Assembly: GCA_007695175.1 (NCBI GenBank)
Contig: REEH01000201.1
Coordinates: forward strand, 1 to 42,762
Reading direction: 5' to 3'
Source of the DNA: Spirochaetaceae bacterium
GTDB taxonomy: Bacteria > Spirochaetota > Spirochaetia > DSM-27196 > Alkalispirochaetaceae
Length of the DNA stretch: 42,762 nt
How positions within the stretch are numbered: the stretch's first letter is position 1; every line of letters begins with the position of its first letter. Under the pieces are notes generated by a model, which worked only from the letters and a program-made list of their open reading frames with translations, had not been told where the DNA came from and ran no database searches. The position numbers and the translations under genes were made by a program. Of the stretch, positions 21,394 to 30,149 are shown piece by piece.

Positions 21394-23396
21394 TCAGCCG
21401 GGCGATCCTGAGAACCGGACCCAACCGGTGGACGCAGTTCGAGGAACCCCTCGCGGCAATCCTCGTAGAGGACTCACCCGGCCGGATCCCGGAGGCGCTA
21501 CGCCTGCTGGAAGAAGAGGTAGAGGGCCGGGGTGTCCCTGCCGTTGGTTTTCTCACCTACGAGGCTGCCGCCGCGTATGGCCTGGCGGTGCACGAAACAC
21601 CCCGGAAGGCAACCGCACCGGGCGCGACCGCCCCGATCGGCGGCAGCCCCGCTCTCCCCCTGCTCTGTTTCGTGCTCTTTGGCCGACGCCGGGACGCCAC
21701 TGCCCTGATGAGTGCCGACCCGCCCTGCGGAAAGGGCTACAATGCCGGGCCCTGGCGCAACAGCCTGGAGGAAGCGGCCTACCGGGAACGGATACAGCGG
21801 GTTCGCTCCTACCTGCGCGCGGGAGACACGTACCAGGTCAACTTTACCTTCTCCATGACCGCCCCCTTTTCCGGTGATTCGGAAGCGTACTTCCGTGACA
21901 TGTGCGCCGCTCAGGATGGGGAACACGCGGCGTATCTGGAACTGGAGAGTGGAATCGCAGTGCTCTCGGCGTCGCCTGAACTCTTTCTCCGACGGGAAGG
22001 CTCCCGCCTTTTCGGCCGGCCCATGAAAGGCACCGCTCCGCGGGGACTCACTGCGCGGGAGGACCGGGCAAACGCGCGGAATCTGCGGCGTTCCCCCAAG
22101 GAACGCGCGGAAAACCTCATGATCACGGACATGATACGCAACGACCTGGGCCGGATCGCGATCCCCGGGTCCGTGACTGTGCCTCGACTCTTCCAGGTGG
22201 AGCGATATCCCCGTGTTCTGCAGATGGTCTCCCGCGTGGAGGCACGAAGCGACGCGTCCCTGGCGGAACTGCTGGCCGCCACATTCCCCTGCGCCAGCAT
22301 CACCGGTGCGCCCAAGAAACGCACCATGGAGATCATCCGGGAGCTGGAAAGCGGCCCCCGGGGTATCTACACCGGTTCGATCGGGGTGCTCTATCCGGGG
22401 CGGCGTATGCGCTTCAACGTGGCCATCCGCACCGTTGTGGTGGACCGCCGGAGAGGTTGCGCCACCTTCGGCGTGGGCGGGGGCATAGTCTGGGACTCCC
22501 TGCCCGAGGGGGAATACCGGGAGTGCGCCACCAAGGCAAACATCCTGGCCGATCCGCAGCCACCGGTGACCCTCCTGGAGACGCTCCGGTGGAGTCCGAC
22601 CCGGGGAATAACACTCTACGAGGGACACCTGCGGCGCCTCCGCTCGAGTGCCCGCTACTTCCGCATACCCCTCACCGCCGGCCACGGACGGGATCTCCTG
22701 ACCGCGGAATCACTGGACCGGCGGATTGCCGATGTCGCGGGCAACAGCGCGACGCCCCATCACACCGGGGACTGGCGCGTCCGGGTCCTGCTCAGCCGGC
22801 GATCGCTGGAGCTCCAGGCGGAACCAATCCCGGGTCCGCCGAGAGACCCCCTGGCACCCGATGCCGCCCCCCCTCAGGACTACCTGCCCGGGGGCGAATG
22901 CGCCGGCCTGCCGGAGCGCACGGTAGCGTTCTCGCCGGATCCGATCCCGGAAGGGATACCCTGGATCCACCACAAGACGACGCGGCGGGACCTGTACCAG
23001 GATCGGCTTTCGGCGTTTCCTGGTGCCCAGGACGTTCTGCTCTGCAACGGCGCGGGAAACCTAACCGAAAGCTGTACCGCCAACATCCTTGTGACGCGCC
23101 GCACCGGGCCGCGGGGGGATGCCGGGCGGCCGGGGGATGCCGGGCGGCCGGGCGAAGCCGAGTGGTACCTGGCAACCCCGCCACTCACGGAGGGCCTCCT
23201 GCCGGGAGTCTTCCGGGAATGGCTTCTTGCCCGCCGGGGAGTCACGGATGATCCCTGGACGCCCGGAGGGCTTTCCATCCGGGAAGAACCGATTCCCGTA
23301 AGCGTTCTCCGGGAGATACGGGAGGGGGAGGCGGACCTGTACCTGGTCAACTCCCTGCGGGGATGGATGCGGGCCACGCTGCTGCCCGATTCTTGA
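21390..23396 (+). CDS. pabB: Fused aminodeoxychorismate synthase component I / aminodeoxychorismate lyase (PabB-PabC)
   Basis: 668 residues. Residues 1-390 are a PabB chorismate-binding domain: GDTYQVNFT, SPELFLRREG, PMKGTAPRG with Lys213 (the PIKGT lysine that separates PabB from TrpE), ITDMIRNDLGRI, ITGAPKKRTMEIIRELE and FGVGGGIVWDS. Residues about 395-668 are a class IV PLP aminotransferase-type lyase: LYEGHLRRLRSSARYF, HHKTTRRDLYQ (Lys529, expected Schiff-base lysine) and NLTESCTANI. Together they convert chorismate plus ammonia to p-aminobenzoate for folate. PabA (glutaminase) is not in the window. GTG 21390 is used because it overlaps the previous stop; the much longer open frame upstream reads through another gene. 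An 18-bp tandem repeat lies in the C-terminal part. Confidence 0.92.
   Translation: MISRAILRTGPNRWTQFEEPLAAILVEDSPGRIPEALRLLEEEVEGRGVPAVGFLTYEAAAAYGLAVHETPRKATAPGATAPIGGSPALPLLCFVLFGRRRDATALMSADPPCGKGYNAGPWRNSLEEAAYRERIQRVRSYLRAGDTYQVNFTFSMTAPFSGDSEAYFRDMCAAQDGEHAAYLELESGIAVLSASPELFLRREGSRLFGRPMKGTAPRGLTAREDRANARNLRRSPKERAENLMITDMIRNDLGRIAIPGSVTVPRLFQVERYPRVLQMVSRVEARSDASLAELLAATFPCASITGAPKKRTMEIIRELESGPRGIYTGSIGVLYPGRRMRFNVAIRTVVVDRRRGCATFGVGGGIVWDSLPEGEYRECATKANILADPQPPVTLLETLRWSPTRGITLYEGHLRRLRSSARYFRIPLTAGHGRDLLTAESLDRRIADVAGNSATPHHTGDWRVRVLLSRRSLELQAEPIPGPPRDPLAPDAAPPQDYLPGGECAGLPERTVAFSPDPIPEGIPWIHHKTTRRDLYQDRLSAFPGAQDVLLCNGAGNLTESCTANILVTRRTGPRGDAGRPGDAGRPGEAEWYLATPPLTEGLLPGVFREWLLARRGVTDDPWTPGGLSIREEPIPVSVLREIREGEADLYLVNSLRGWMRATLLPDS
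23114..23149 (+). repeat. Two exact 18-bp tandem repeats inside pabBC
   Basis: Units 23114-23131 and 23132-23149 are identical and encode GDAGRP twice, followed by a degenerate third start (GEAEW). Being a multiple of three, copy changes would keep the frame. Confidence 0.85.
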
Positions 23397-23423
23397 CCCG
23401 CTCCGGCGCCGGCGGGGTATACT
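23393..23423 (+). promoter_or_regulatory. Candidate promoter of the thioredoxin/CcdA-like gene, start-codon-proximal
   Basis: TTGACC (23393-23398), 19-nt spacer, strong -10 TATACT (23418-23423), then 6 nt to the ATG at 23430. No Shine-Dalgarno in the gap. The -35 box overlaps the pabBC stop. Confidence 0.45.
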
Positions 23424-23429
23424 CCCCGC

Positions 23430-25088
23430 ATGGTAGCCCGGACCGCAATGGTCACTTTCCTGGTTCTCCTCTTCCTTATGATACCGGGGTCTTCCGCCGA
23501 AAGCGCTGAGGACCTGCCCCTCATCCCGGTGGTGTACTACGGTGACATCAGCTGCGCTCATTGCGATACGGTGGTGGACGGCCTGATACCCGCCCTGGAG
23601 GAGCAGTACGACGTCGCCTTTGAGGTGGAGGCCTACGATGTACTGCAGCCGGCGCAGGAGAGCGCGGCGCGGGCCCGCCTGGCGGAACTGGGACTCTCCT
23701 ACCGGGTGCCACCGGTGCTCCTGGTAGGCAACAACGCGTACCAGGGAAACTATGCCATCGACAAGCACCTCCCGGAAGAGGTCCAGCACTATCTGTGGTT
23801 CGGGGAGTTTCGTCCCTTTGAAAGGACGCTTTCCGAGACGCGCCATCCCTCCGCCCGGCCCATCGCCGACGAGGGGCCCACCTCTCCGGGTGACCCGGGG
23901 GTGCTGCGCTATTTCTGGGGGGTCGGCTGCCCCTACTGTGAACTGGCTGCACCATTCATAGACCGCCTGGAACGGGACTACCCCGACATCCGGGTGGAGC
24001 GCTATGAGGTCTTCCGGAGCCGCGAGCACCACGACACGTTCCGGGAAACGCTCGCCTGGTACGGAAGCTCCAGCACCGCCGTGCCCCAGATCTTCTTCGA
24101 GGATCAGGGCTGGGTCGGATTCAGCGATCGTGTGATGCGCGAGGCGGAAGAGGCAGTCCAGGGCCACAGGAGGTCAACCCCCGGGCGGGCGGGTACACCG
24201 GAAGCGGTGGAGCTTCCCGTTTTCGGAACGATCCAGGCCGGGAGTATCCCCGTCGTGGCCATGACCGCTGCGATCGCCTTCGTGGACGGTTTCAACCCCT
24301 GTTCCCTCTGGGTTCTCACCCTGCTTCTCGGCCTTATCGCACACACCCGCTCGCGCCGGAGGATCATGGTGGTGGGTGGAGTCTTCCTTCTCGTGACCGC
24401 CGGGATCTACGGCCTCTTCATGCTCGGTCTGCTCAGCGTCTTCGCCCTCGCCGGCAATGCACTTTCTCTCAGAATCCTGGTGGGTCTCATCGCGGTGACG
24501 ATGGGGCTCATCAACGTCAAGGATTACTTCCTTTTCAAGCGGGGGATCTCCCTGACCATTCCGGACCGATTCAAGCGGCGAATAACCTCGGGGAGCCGCC
24601 TGGTGGCCACCGCTACCGCGGGCACCATGGGGCTAATGGCGATGACCGCACTCTTCGCCGCGGGGATCGCAATCGTGGAGCTGCCCTGTACGGCGGGCTT
24701 TCCCGTGATCTGGTCCCGCTACGTCACCACCACCATTACAGCAAGGGGCACCTTCTACGCGCTGCTCGGATTGTACCTGCTCGTGTATCTCCTGCTGGAG
24801 ATCATGATCGTGGCAGCGGCTCTGTACACCATGGGACGCATCAGTTTCAGCGAGCGCCAGGCGCGGCCGATCAAACTGGTCGGTGGCGCGATCATGATGA
24901 GCCTCGGCGTCTTCTACGTTATCGATCCGGACATGGCGAGCACTCTGGCGGGAGTGGGGCAGATCTTTCTCGTCGCGATTCTGGGTGCCGCGGTCGCGGC
25001 GGGTGCCGCCCGCGGGGCGGAACGACTCGCCGGGCGCACTATCGGGCGTCCATCGCCGCGGAGACAGCCAGGTCCGGCCGATCCGTGA
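23430..25088 (+). CDS. Membrane redox protein: two thioredoxin-like domains fused to a CcdA/DsbD-like transmembrane domain
   Basis: 552 residues. A signal-type N-terminus (residues 5-23) places the next part in the periplasm. Domain 1 (about 30-130) has SCAHC (Cys42, Cys45) and the cis-Pro region RVPPVLLVG. Domain 2 (about 155-245) has GCPYC (Cys167, Cys170) and AVPQIFFE. From residue 275 on, six or more membrane helices follow, with FNPCSLW (Cys291) and ELPCTAGFP (Cys420), matching the paired intramembrane cysteines of CcdA/DsbD. The likely job is carrying electrons across the inner membrane to exported thioredoxin-fold domains that reduce disulfides. Its order (Trx-Trx-membrane) differs from DsbD (cap domain-membrane-Trx). 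The 3' end overlaps the convergent phosphodiesterase gene by 50 nt. Confidence 0.85.
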   Translation: MVARTAMVTFLVLLFLMIPGSSAESAEDLPLIPVVYYGDISCAHCDTVVDGLIPALEEQYDVAFEVEAYDVLQPAQESAARARLAELGLSYRVPPVLLVGNNAYQGNYAIDKHLPEEVQHYLWFGEFRPFERTLSETRHPSARPIADEGPTSPGDPGVLRYFWGVGCPYCELAAPFIDRLERDYPDIRVERYEVFRSREHHDTFRETLAWYGSSSTAVPQIFFEDQGWVGFSDRVMREAEEAVQGHRRSTPGRAGTPEAVELPVFGTIQAGSIPVVAMTAAIAFVDGFNPCSLWVLTLLLGLIAHTRSRRRIMVVGGVFLLVTAGIYGLFMLGLLSVFALAGNALSLRILVGLIAVTMGLINVKDYFLFKRGISLTIPDRFKRRITSGSRLVATATAGTMGLMAMTALFAAGIAIVELPCTAGFPVIWSRYVTTTITARGTFYALLGLYLLVYLLLEIMIVAAALYTMGRISFSERQARPIKLVGGAIMMSLGVFYVIDPDMASTLAGVGQIFLVAILGAAVAAGAARGAERLAGRTIGRPSPRRQPGPADP

Positions 25089-26818: not shown

Positions 26819-28039
26819 TTATCCACGCCCGGCACCGGCGGGTCCACCCCCGGCGTCAATACTTCCGGTGCCGGGCGTCCCCGGAGCGATCCCGGCCGAC
26901 GAGGGCAGCTCAAACTGCGCGGAAAAACGGCGCGGCACCATGATCTCCTGAACGCTCTCGATCGCGAAGTCGTCAGTCATGCCCGCTATGTAGTCGAAAA
27001 CCACCTGCTCCGGCGGTGATTCCTCTGTGCTGTAAAAGGCTTCCATCTTGTGCACGTAATCGCCGAACCGCGCCGCCAGCGTGTTGTTTTCCCCCAGGTA
27101 CGCCTGCTCCTCCGGGCCGTGCTGCTCGAAGAGATCGTGCAGGTAGGAGAAAAGCGTCTCCAGAATACGCTCGAAATACTGGTGATATCCCGCCAGGGCG
27201 GGACTGGTATAAATCCGCCGGTAGTTGAACTCCTTGACCTCCACAAAAGCGCGGTAGATATCGTCGGAAAAGCCCACCGTTCCGGCATCAAGGGATGTGC
27301 GGATGAGATCGTTCACGAGGGCGTCGATGATCTCCGAGTTGCTGCTGCCCAGGAGACGGCGTCCTTCCGGGGGAACCTCCTCCGGCCGGATCATCCCCAG
27401 CTGCATCGCGTCCTCCAGGTCCCGACCCAGATAGGCGATCTTGTCGGACATGCGCACTACCACTCCCTCCCAGGTGGAAGGCAGGTGGTCCCGCCGCCGT
27501 ATCGCGGAGAGATCCTTCTCCTGGTGATCCGGCGAGAGCGCCTGTTCAAACTTCTCCCCGCAGTGATTGATGATTCCGTCCCGCACCGCGTAGGTAAGGT
27601 TGAGCCCCCGCCCGTAGTTGGCCAGGTGATCCACTACGCGGAGACTGTAGATCTCGTGGCGGAACCCCTGGATACCGCGCAGACGGGAGAGAATCTTCTC
27701 CCCCAGGTGTCCAAAGGGCGTGTGTCCCAGGTCATGACCCATGGCGATCGCCCAGGCCAGATCAACGTCCAGGTTGAGCGCACGGCAGATGGTGGCCGCC
27801 ACGGTGGCTACGTGCATCACGTGCTCGATGCGGGTGCAGATATGGTCATTCCGGGGAGCGAAGAAGACCTGGGTCTTCTGCTTGAGACGCCGGAAAGGGT
27901 AGGAGTGGATTATCGCGGTGGTATCCCGGAAATAGTGGCCCCGCATATCGGTGGCATCCTCCGGACGTTTCACGCGGCGCCGGCGCTGCACCTCCGGGCT
28001 CAGTTCGTTCTGGAAGAAAAGATTACCCTCGGGGTGCAC
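26819..28039 (-). CDS. dgt: Deoxyguanosinetriphosphate triphosphohydrolase-like HD protein
   Basis: 406 residues. The HD-domain metal ligands are clear: RIEHVMHVATVAATI (His73), AMGHDLGHTPFGHLGE (His102, Asp103) and VRMSDKIAYLGRDLEDA further on. The family cleaves dNTPs to the nucleoside and tripolyphosphate, controlling dNTP pools. SYPFRRLKQKTQVF before the HD motif is the typical lead-in. The start is a GTG at 28037-28039, overlapping the msrA gene by 17 nt; another possible start is the ATG 31 codons later, which would lose a poorly conserved leader. The last 40 residues are Gly/Ala/Pro-rich and outside the family core. Confidence 0.88.
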   Translation of the reverse strand: MHPEGNLFFQNELSPEVQRRRRVKRPEDATDMRGHYFRDTTAIIHSYPFRRLKQKTQVFFAPRNDHICTRIEHVMHVATVAATICRALNLDVDLAWAIAMGHDLGHTPFGHLGEKILSRLRGIQGFRHEIYSLRVVDHLANYGRGLNLTYAVRDGIINHCGEKFEQALSPDHQEKDLSAIRRRDHLPSTWEGVVVRMSDKIAYLGRDLEDAMQLGMIRPEEVPPEGRRLLGSSNSEIIDALVNDLIRTSLDAGTVGFSDDIYRAFVEVKEFNYRRIYTSPALAGYHQYFERILETLFSYLHDLFEQHGPEEQAYLGENNTLAARFGDYVHKMEAFYSTEESPPEQVVFDYIAGMTDDFAIESVQEIMVPRRFSAQFELPSSAGIAPGTPGTGSIDAGGGPAGAGRG

Positions 28040-28553
28040 TGTCGAATCCCAGCTTCTTGAGCTTCGGCTCGATAACGGCGCGGCAGTACCCCTGCCGGCT
28101 GTTGAGTTCGTAGTAATCCTGGTGGTAATCCTCAGCGGGATAAAACTCCCGGAGCGGTTCGATCCGGGTCACGATGGGATCGCGGAACTCCCCGGTCGCG
28201 GCTGCCCGGTCACGACTCTGCTCCGCCGCCAGGCGCTGCTCCTCATCAATGCAAAGGATGATCGAACGGTACTGCGTCCCCACATCCGCCCCCTGCCGGT
28301 TAAGCGTGGTGGGATCATGGGCTTTCCAGAAGAAGGCCAGGATCTCCTCCAGCGGGATGCGATCCGCGTCAAAGGTGACGCGCACCACCTCGGCGTGGCC
28401 CGTGGAGCCGCTGCACACCGTGCGGTAGTCGGGATCGGGCGTGGTGCCGCCGGCGTAGCCCGACTCCAGCTCCAGCACCCCCTCCAGACGGCGGTAGAGC
28501 GCTTCCACGCACCAGAAACACCCTCCCCCCAGGACGATTGACTGTCGGTTCAT
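28023..28553 (-). CDS. msrA: Peptide-methionine (S)-S-oxide reductase MsrA
   Basis: 176 residues, full-length for MsrA. GGGCFWCVEA contains the catalytic Cys12 (GCFWC), GYAGGTTPDPDYRTVCSGSTGHAEVVRV is conserved across the family, and FWKAHDPTTLNRQGADVGTQYRS follows. It repairs oxidised methionine in proteins. A recycling Cys could be that in RQGYCRAV near the C-terminus. GGAG lies 8 nt before the ATG. It leads into the dgt gene with a 17-nt overlap. Confidence 0.97.
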   Translation of the reverse strand: MNRQSIVLGGGCFWCVEALYRRLEGVLELESGYAGGTTPDPDYRTVCSGSTGHAEVVRVTFDADRIPLEEILAFFWKAHDPTTLNRQGADVGTQYRSIILCIDEEQRLAAEQSRDRAAATGEFRDPIVTRIEPLREFYPAEDYHQDYYELNSRQGYCRAVIEPKLKKLGFDSAPRG

Positions 28554-28643
28554 AATTTCTTCTCCATCGTGTCACCTCTGTCCTATGAAAGTACAGAAAA
28601 TCGGACCCGACGTCACGGGGATGCCCGGAGGCATTCAACGTCA

Positions 28644-29369
28644 CTACCCGGAAGGATCCTGCTCCCTCTTCCTCCGCGCCACGATTCGGGCAAAGAGGAT
28701 GCTTATCTCGAAGAGGCCCATCATGGGACCGGCGAGCAGCACCTGCGATACCACGTCCGGCGGGGTGAGAACCGCGGAGAGAATCACCAGCGCCACGAGG
28801 ACGTATTTCCTCGAGGAGCGCAGCATAGCCGGCGAGACGAGACCGACCCGCGCGAGAATCGTGACGACGACGGGCAGTTCGAAAGCGATACCAAAGGCGA
28901 GGAGAATTGAAATCACGAAACCGACATACCCGCCGAAGGAAAACATCGGTTGAATCGCCCGCGTCGCGTACTGCAGAAAGAAACGCATTGTCAGGGGGAG
29001 AATGATGCGAAACGCGAAGACCGCGCCGGCGGCGAAGAAGACACTTCCGCCAAAGAGTATGAACGCCACCGAAACCTTTTCACGACGGGAGAGCGCCGGT
29101 CTTACGAAAAACCAGATCTGTGAGAGCGTTATCGGAAGCGTAAGAACGATTCCGAGCATCAGAGAAATTCTCACATAGGCGAGAAAAAGCTCCGGCGGCG
29201 CCAGATAGACCATCTCGGCTCCGGGAGCGAGCGCGAGCAACTCCTCAACAATTGTTTCGACAAAGACGAAGCACGCCGCGCTCCCGGCAACCAGGGAAAG
29301 GAAAACGATGATCAGCCGTTTCCGCAGTTCCGAGAGGTGGTCGACAAACGACATGGACGCATCGGACAT
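28644..29369 (-). CDS. tatC: Sec-independent protein translocase TatC
   Basis: 241 residues with six predicted membrane helices. MSFVDHLSELRKRLI at the N-terminus is the TatC signature that helps bind twin-arginine signals; YLAPPELFLAYVRISLMLGI and the Pro-rich FELPVVVTILARVGLVSP loop are equally typical. It forms the Tat receptor with TatA/B to export folded proteins. It starts 11 nt after tatA and has no evident Shine-Dalgarno. Confidence 0.96.
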   Translation of the reverse strand: MSDASMSFVDHLSELRKRLIIVFLSLVAGSAACFVFVETIVEELLALAPGAEMVYLAPPELFLAYVRISLMLGIVLTLPITLSQIWFFVRPALSRREKVSVAFILFGGSVFFAAGAVFAFRIILPLTMRFFLQYATRAIQPMFSFGGYVGFVISILLAFGIAFELPVVVTILARVGLVSPAMLRSSRKYVLVALVILSAVLTPPDVVSQVLLAGPMMGLFEISILFARIVARRKREQDPSG

Positions 29370-29380
29370 AGGCGGTTGAA

Positions 29381-29599
29381 TCAGGTGCTGTCGGAACCGG
29401 TGCGGTTGTCGCTATCTTTCTTCTGATCAGCCGTATCGTCCAGATCGAGTTCTTCCGTAATGCTGTTGGAATGGCGCTTGAAATTCCTGATCGCGCTGCC
29501 CACCGCTTTTCCGATTTCCGGCAGCTTCTTGGGACCAAAAATGATCAGCGCGATCGCGAAGATCAGGATCAGTTCCATCGGCCCGATTCGTCCAAACAT
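29381..29599 (-). CDS. tatA: Twin-arginine translocase subunit TatA
   Basis: 72 residues. One membrane helix (residues 8-21, ELILIFAIALIIFG) is followed by the FGPKKLPEIGKAVGSAIRNF amphipathic helix and an acidic tail, the standard TatA layout. ATG 29597-29599 is chosen because it gives the normal length and has AGAGGG upstream; the open frame extends 82 codons further without homology. No separate tatB is seen; a single TatA-type protein may serve both roles. Confidence 0.95.
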   Translation of the reverse strand: MFGRIGPMELILIFAIALIIFGPKKLPEIGKAVGSAIRNFKRHSNSITEELDLDDTADQKKDSDNRTGSDST

Positions 29600-29642
29600 C
29601 TCTGGTACCCTCTCGTTCTGAGTTTTCGTCCCGTCCAGGTGA

Positions 29643-30149
29643 TCAGTATACCCCGTGATCAGTATATCCGCTGTTTTCCCGATCGGATAGGTATTCGCTC
29701 GGGATGAGGGAGGACTGCTTGCTGCAGTTCGCGCACAGCGCCGTCGGAGCGCCCCGTTCAAGGAACGCGCCGCAGCGGCGGCACCGCTTTCCCTTGACTG
29801 CAGTCCCGATGACTTCCCTCTCGCCGGCGTTCGCCCCATGCGCATCGTGCCGGTGGATTGCGTCCACGGGACACGCGGCGACGCACGCGCCGCAATCGCG
29901 GCATTCCCGCTGGGTGAACAGGATGGTGCGTGTTGTACCCTCCGTCGTAACCCTCCAGGCGCCGGAAGGACAGACGCGCGTACACCCGCCGGCGCGGGCC
30001 AGAACGGTTCTCAGAAACTCGCGCCGCGACACCCCCCCGTCGTGCGGATCCGGCGCATTTTCCTTATCGGACTGCAGTGGGGACTCCTTCAGCGCGGCAC
30101 CGATCATCCAGACCAAACTGACCGGAACGGTGATTACTCGTAGCGGCAT
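29643..30149 (-). CDS. Ferredoxin-like 4Fe-4S protein with twin-arginine-like motif and a second four-cysteine site
   Basis: 168 residues. CRDCGACVAACP (Cys83, 86, 89, 93) is a complete 4Fe-4S motif followed by VDAIH. Near the C-terminus CRRCGAFL and CANC (Cys123, 126, 139, 142) form a rubredoxin- or zinc-ribbon-like four-Cys site, and CTRVC adds two more (56, 60). Residues 41-50 read SRREFLRTVL, close to the Tat consensus S-R-R-x-F-L-K, but it is internal, with only a weak hydrophobic stretch after it. Residues 5-20 are hydrophobic. It overlaps the methyltransferase gene by 16 nt and sits 43 nt ahead of tatA, so electron transfer to the methyltransferase system or Tat export are both possible. 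Confidence 0.7.
   Translation of the reverse strand: MPLRVITVPVSLVWMIGAALKESPLQSDKENAPDPHDGGVSRREFLRTVLARAGGCTRVCPSGAWRVTTEGTTRTILFTQRECRDCGACVAACPVDAIHRHDAHGANAGEREVIGTAVKGKRCRRCGAFLERGAPTALCANCSKQSSLIPSEYLSDRENSGYTDHGVY

Follow-up and report, generated by a model that had tools for sequence, protein, structure and literature searches.

The 42,762-nucleotide stretch of spirochaetal DNA analysed here (the window) encodes a protein in which two CxxC domains precede a membrane part with conserved cysteines of its own, which raises the question of whether this chain is a known carrier in rearranged form or a different combination of parts. CcdA works with separate redoxins, and DsbD is a single-chain electron carrier with periplasmic domains and a fused C-terminal thioredoxin. 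In the accessible parts of the respective papers, CcdA is described as having a single cysteine pair and partner thioredoxins and as passing electrons outwards from cytoplasmic thiols (PMC12288474), it appears together with separate CcmG/DsbE (PMC8945050), and flavinylation clusters are reported that contain DsbD and a thioredoxin-like protein (PMC8238504). On the evidence below, the window protein quite probably carries electrons by thiol-disulfide exchange in the membrane, in the manner of CcdA, and has both of its periplasmic redoxins built in. What is new is the domain combination N1-N2-core, the kind of machine (a CcdA-like carrier) being already known.

Two redoxin domains ahead of a membrane core

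The ORF has the parts listed in the original prediction, namely a signal peptide-like start, N1 with CAHC, N2 with CPYC and a membrane part with FNPC and ELPC (Table 1). A structure model of the protein (75 sequences as input, mean pLDDT 83.7, pTM 0.66) shows a redoxin fold for each of N1 and N2, and seven helices, two of which break at the core cysteines; the predicted signal peptide was called from the hydrophobic N-terminus of the sequence and a helix in this model. The nearest relatives are from the same genus and order of spirochaetes and include Alkalispirochaeta alkalica DSM 8900 (L059).

Table 1. Features of the carrier gene, its upstream region and its neighbours in the window.
Feature	Coordinates	Strand	Basis or remark
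Whole ORF, N1-N2-membrane core	23430..25088	+	ATG to TGA, 552 aa
N-terminal hydrophobic segment, likely signal peptide (residues about 1-24)	23430..23501	+	sequence; helix 2-16 low-confidence in model
N1 thioredoxin-like domain, residues 30-140, C42-A-H-C45, probable cis-Pro in PPV near residue 95, GNNAYQG	23517..23849	+	profile matches and model
N2 thioredoxin/glutaredoxin domain, residues 155-246, C167-P-Y-C170, probable cis-Pro P219	23892..24167	+	Pfam and fold search
Membrane core, residues 264-528, seven predicted helices, two broken at N289-P-C291 and L418-P-C420	24219..25013	+	profiles, model, fold search
Promoter-like TTGACC-N19-TATACT	23393..23423	+	ends 6 nt 5' of ATG
Upstream neighbour: pabB-like gene with pabC-like end			named from sequence
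Downstream neighbours: glycerophosphodiester phosphodiesterase-like and DUF368-like genes		opposite	named from sequence

Upstream of the gene, TATACT lies 6-8 nt 5' of the ATG in five of six loci examined in the genus (the window, L002, L004, L005 and L006, not L003), and four of these five also carry TTGAC[CG] with a 19-nt spacer. A standard consensus promoter scan, set to spacers of 16-18 nt, reported no promoter upstream of the window ORF. The conservation of TATACT near the ATG suggests a conserved promoter and a leaderless transcript.

The sole Pfam match in the window protein is Glutaredoxin at residues 164-226 (E 5.8e-6), within N2. Fold searches aligned N2 with thioredoxin folds at Z scores of about 10-11, the lists returned for the whole model were filled by thioredoxins, and PDB sequence searches with the window protein returned redoxins only. 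N2 is a thioredoxin fold with a CxxC motif and a cis-proline, P219 being taken as cis from its position in the fold. Neither of its cysteines (C167 and C170) varies among the 75 aligned sequences, in all of which N2 adjoins the core.

Searched against Pfam, N1 matched nothing at E 1. Its profile matched the N1 of another spirochaetal redoxin-core family (prob 100, 45% identity) as well as N2 (prob 97.7, E 2.5e-12), and the model shows a b-a-b-a-b-b-a order with pLDDT mostly above 90. As judged from profiles and model, N1 is a thioredoxin-fold domain with CxxC and, by its place, a probable cis-proline. The cysteine pair of N1, as C-x-[HK]-C, is kept in all 14 N1 rows from two-redoxin proteins, four of which were extracted by this very pattern and the other ten without it. 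The profile matches indicate that the extra domain is a different redoxin class, related to the other spirochaetal family, and not a copy of N2. Profiles, model and HMM-assigned layouts thus agree on two N-terminal CxxC thioredoxin-fold domains before a CcdA-like core in one chain, as had been predicted.

Likeness of the membrane core to CcdA

In the model, the two broken helices of the core comprise H275-287/H290-304 around C291 and H399-421/H423-435 around C420, and helix 7 ends at residue 534, with 18 residues remaining to the C-terminus. Both C291 and C420 occur in every one of the 75 aligned sequences, whose identity to the window protein is 33-65%; 6 of 80 loci were omitted from this alignment: L049 (in-frame stop), L059 (ambiguous bases) and L083 (broken), together with L073, L105 and L117, which were removed by a filter on motif and length. 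Because C167, C170, C291 and C420 are all invariant at this degree of divergence, the motifs that contain them are not there by chance. Positive loops follow helices 1, 3, 5 and 7, the other loops being neutral or negative (helix ends from the model), and this alternation places the redoxins outside and the C-terminus inside.

The membrane core of the window protein matched nothing in Pfam at E 1, and none of the 75 members matched PF02683 (DsbD_TM) at E 0.01; PF02683 does detect CcdA-type proteins of the ordinary kind, in 41 of 46 genomes, including the window's own, where it found that other CcdA only. When profiles were compared with CcdA, the core profile alone reached prob 52.7 (E 1.4e-4), which we count against the electron-carrier reading, and the profile pooled from this family and the N1-core family reached prob 94.9 (E 4.8e-8, 199 columns). 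In the profile alignment both cysteines are in register with 24 CcdA sequences (NPC on SPC and LPC on SPC). The core also matched the core of the N1-core family (prob 99.4, 22% identity), which in turn matched CcdA (prob 96.0), and the controls (TatC, DUF368, SfLAP and the reversed core) gave prob 0.2-2.5. Fold comparison placed CcdA (5vkv) on the core model at Z 7.8 with an rmsd of 4.3 over 194 of 224 residues, a score on a par with those of unrelated transporters: the same search gave Z 9.0 for a YcsG model, 8.9 for a TOC-TIC chain and 7.0-7.5 for several amino-acid transporters, and a Foldseek comparison with the CcdA fold gave E 1.3. Since the fold comparison decides nothing alone, we call the core a distant relative that would work like CcdA, and not a member of PF02683. 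The profile evidence makes the core CcdA-like, distantly, and the expectation of a CcdA-like membrane domain in the original prediction holds at that distance.

What CcdA (PDB 5vkv; PF02683; TC 5.A.1) and the window protein have in common is one cysteine per core half next to a proline, both aligning over the full core. They differ in that the window family lacks a PF02683 match and has one extra predicted helix, and in that the redoxins are fused N-terminally in the window protein, whereas CcdA uses separate ones. A two-fold (3+3) inverted repeat, sought by sequence with one half against the other, gave no sign (prob 0.24 for the profiles of the core halves), and the model shows one broken helix per half.

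The membrane domain could also be a transporter of the LysE superfamily (for a metal, lipid or oxyanion) that is gated or maintained by the redoxins and carries no electrons, given that CcdA/DsbD and such exporters are placed in one superfamily in the accessible part of PMC4608589. Weak SfLAP matches in 2 of the 75 members (best E 0.00036) and in one member of the N1-core family point in this direction, as do the clusters in which some relatives lie with ArsR-like and ArsP-like genes. However, the core profile reached prob 2.5 at best against six SfLAP proteins, which disfavours an SfLAP-type transporter; these six have one cysteine each, without paired PC cysteines, whereas the two core cysteines are invariant with flanking prolines, as in CcdA. 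A transporter is therefore unlikely.

Distribution and origin of the layout

Matches to the window protein were obtained in 38 of 61 genomes searched as relatives and in 94 of 394 genomes of the class, many of the latter partial or remote; plasmid records gave one weak match, a Pseudanabaena 'glutaredoxin family protein'. One genome collection (named genomes) holds 435 confirmed stretches encoding relatives; the analysis covered the best 80 of them. Layouts were assigned with HMMs built for this analysis, stops being taken as X in 6 of the 80 frames (L049, L052, L083, L086, L105 and L108), and among the window protein and these best 80 of 435 we counted 67 N2-core, 13 N1-N2-core and one N2-N2-core protein, N1 being absent in 68 of the 81 (N2-N2-core included). 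The 13 N1-N2-core proteins are that of the window and those of 12 loci, all from Spirochaetota, a count that includes the broken L049 and L083. N2-core proteins come from Bipolaricaulota, Gemmatimonadota, Pseudomonadota, Actinomycetota, Chloroflexota and other phyla; they share N2 and the core with the window protein, differ from it in lacking N1 and are 36-67% identical to it over the core, and the window protein nests within them. The N2-core family is widespread, has no Pfam assignment and is uncharacterised within the literature searched. As to the damaged loci, L003/L049 is a spirochaetal orthologue with an in-frame TAG in N2 and L027/L083 one with frame damage, each by decay or assembly error.

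These counts bear on the proposal that the protein is a DsbD with swapped and doubled domain order, which we abandon: PF02683 matched no member, the redoxin-first arrangement is the usual one (67 of 81) and N1 does not duplicate N2. The window protein would resemble DsbD/ScsB as a single-chain electron carrier with periplasmic domains. It differs from them in having neither a C-terminal thioredoxin nor an Ig-like N-terminal domain, in that both of its redoxins are N-terminal CxxC thioredoxin folds, and in a core outside PF02683. A rearranged DsbD was rejected on these grounds.

Another spirochaetal layout was seen in L040 (1943-3385), in which a DUF1573 domain is followed by a redoxin and then by the same kind of core; L041, L042, L043 and L046 probably share it (N-terminal domain judged by eye). 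With an Ig-like domain in front of redoxin and carrier core, this layout is reminiscent of DsbD and its N-terminal domain.

In a core tree of 78 rows (a quick tree without bootstrap), the 12 two-redoxin Spirochaetota rows and L050 (= L006) form one set (SH-aLRT 99). L050 is from the same genus, is 67% identical in the core and has a hydrophobic N-terminus directly before N2, without N1; since it lies inside the two-redoxin set, the lack of N1 reads as a later loss. The tree suggests one spirochaetal origin of the N1-N2-core form and one secondary loss of N1. L087 (654-2684, Thermoflexales), whose protein has a pair of N2-type redoxins preceding its core, stands apart among Chloroflexota in the core tree and, to judge from this placement, doubled N2 independently. 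In G003, a same-genus genome without a full relative, a 160-aa frame (L044 2301-2780) has a signal-like N-terminus and an N2-like redoxin.

The spirochaetal N1-core family (DGINPCAF / ELACTGQ; L034-L039 and L045) resembles the window protein in N1 and, by profile, in the core, and differs from it in having one redoxin, with N1 directly before the core, and a core of another branch. In an N1 tree of 28 rows, built after a filter on the N1 motif pattern that kept 14 of the 26 loci fetched, the N1 of two-redoxin proteins and that of the N1-core family are split by one branch (94/93, 92% of bootstrap trees). Because the tree is unrooted, capture of N1 from the N1-core family is the likely direction, though unproved. 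The literature searched, in which subscription journals are thinly covered, contained no protein that joins a pair of N-terminal CxxC domains to a core of this kind and gave no support for an identical architecture having already been characterised.

CcdA-like carriers would accordingly have taken in redoxins more than once, the N2-core form being common and N1 having been added once in Spirochaetota and lost once; the separate doubling of N2 in a Chloroflexota protein would be a further case. This makes the order of a disulfide relay testable in a single polypeptide. The membrane family, with its hundreds of relatives, is unnamed by Pfam as a thiol carrier and may help to explain periplasmic disulfide reduction in bacteria without known Dsb proteins.

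Possible electron route, partners and gene neighbourhood

The likely task of the window protein is to supply proteins on the far side of the cell membrane with reducing power. We infer the direction of flow, the order of the two redoxins and the client as follows. Reduced thioredoxin in the cytosol would donate electrons to C291 and C420 of the membrane core, from which they would pass to the CPYC motif of N2, the domain that always adjoins this core. N1, outermost and optional, would receive them from N2 in line or would swing over to the core for them; reduced N1 would then act on a client disulfide outside the membrane, the electrons ending on N1 or on the clients of either redoxin. Because N2-core proteins are common and a same-genus relative has lost N1, N1 would sit at the end of the chain or on an optional branch.

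Two arrangements fit this route. In the first, the in-line relay put forward in the original prediction, electrons would run in fixed order from core to N2 to N1 to client, as suggested by an N2 that adjoins the core, always with CxxC, in all 75 sequences and by an N1 that is outermost, optional and of another redoxin class. However, the N1-type domain of the other family lies directly before its own core and is thus apparently loadable by a core without N2, and we give this in-line order almost an even chance. In the second, the core would reduce N1 and N2 in turn, each arm with its own clients. N1-type and N2-type redoxins are each found alone with a core, and the two N2-type domains of L087 suit equal arms better than an ordered relay, but the core of the N1-core family is clearly different (22% identity), and that the present core would accept N1 is conjecture; parallel arms are a serious possibility with the chances set against it. 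Combined with the proposed history, the in-line order gives a single-chain outward disulfide relay made by capture, in which the redoxin of one family was put before the redoxin-core protein of another, the order core, N2, N1 is fixed, no diffusible periplasmic partner is required, and the core is an unnamed, broadly spread CcdA-like branch. We offer this fuller account tentatively, as appreciably short of evenly probable.

Turning to partners in the genome, thioredoxin (PF00085) has seven matches. Two of these, on C184 and C231, are strong and fall in short frames of 117 and 127 aa; they are possible electron donors. The genome's ordinary CcdA (L033 1501-2133, G000:C118) lies beside a TlpA/ResA-like ORF, and with this CcdA already present it is not apparent why another carrier would be required, a point that we count against our best explanation. 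A role in cytochrome c maturation, with which CcdA is often named, could be argued from the resemblance of the core to CcdA. Yet the cytochrome c assembly protein (PF01578) had no match in the window's genome, as against 9 of 14 control genomes, and the ordinary CcdA has its own TlpA/ResA-like neighbour, which disfavours such a role and makes it highly improbable. Searches of the same genome for DsbA, DsbB and VKOR gave no match (control genomes did), so an oxidising partner is not in sight; with the genome 97% complete in 256 contigs, absent Dsb, VKOR or PF01578 genes could have been missed.

The genes flanking the window ORF include no redox partner. The C-terminal end of the pabB-like gene precedes the carrier in at least four of the six loci of the genus. 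Among the loci examined there was no conserved operon partner that would name a client, which we also count against the electron-carrier reading, and the immediate neighbours of N2-core loci (117 proteins scanned) showed no dominant family, the commonest models being LigT (4/117) and, after two overlapping RNA-ligase models, ArsP_1 (3/117).

ArsR-like and permease-like clusters, named from sequences, were each seen at 9 of the best 80 of 435 loci, and for the protein of L060 an HTH_5/arsR match bore this naming out. In several phyla, regulators of ArsR type and permeases of ArsP type occur close to N2-core genes (L061, L062, L065, L067, L103, L107 and others). Such neighbours make a metalloid link of the wider N2-core family possible. 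The ars-operon sets of CcdA, thioredoxin and redox-active disulfide protein 2, as far as the accessible part of PMC2963123 describes them, likewise encode a CcdA-like core and a thioredoxin together, and the N2-core relatives near ArsR/ArsP-like genes are akin to them; in those sets the genes are separate, and the window gene lies outside any ars cluster (genes named from sequence). Elsewhere in the window, MsrA-like, TatC-like and TatA-like genes, again named from sequence, lie at 28023-29845 on the minus strand.
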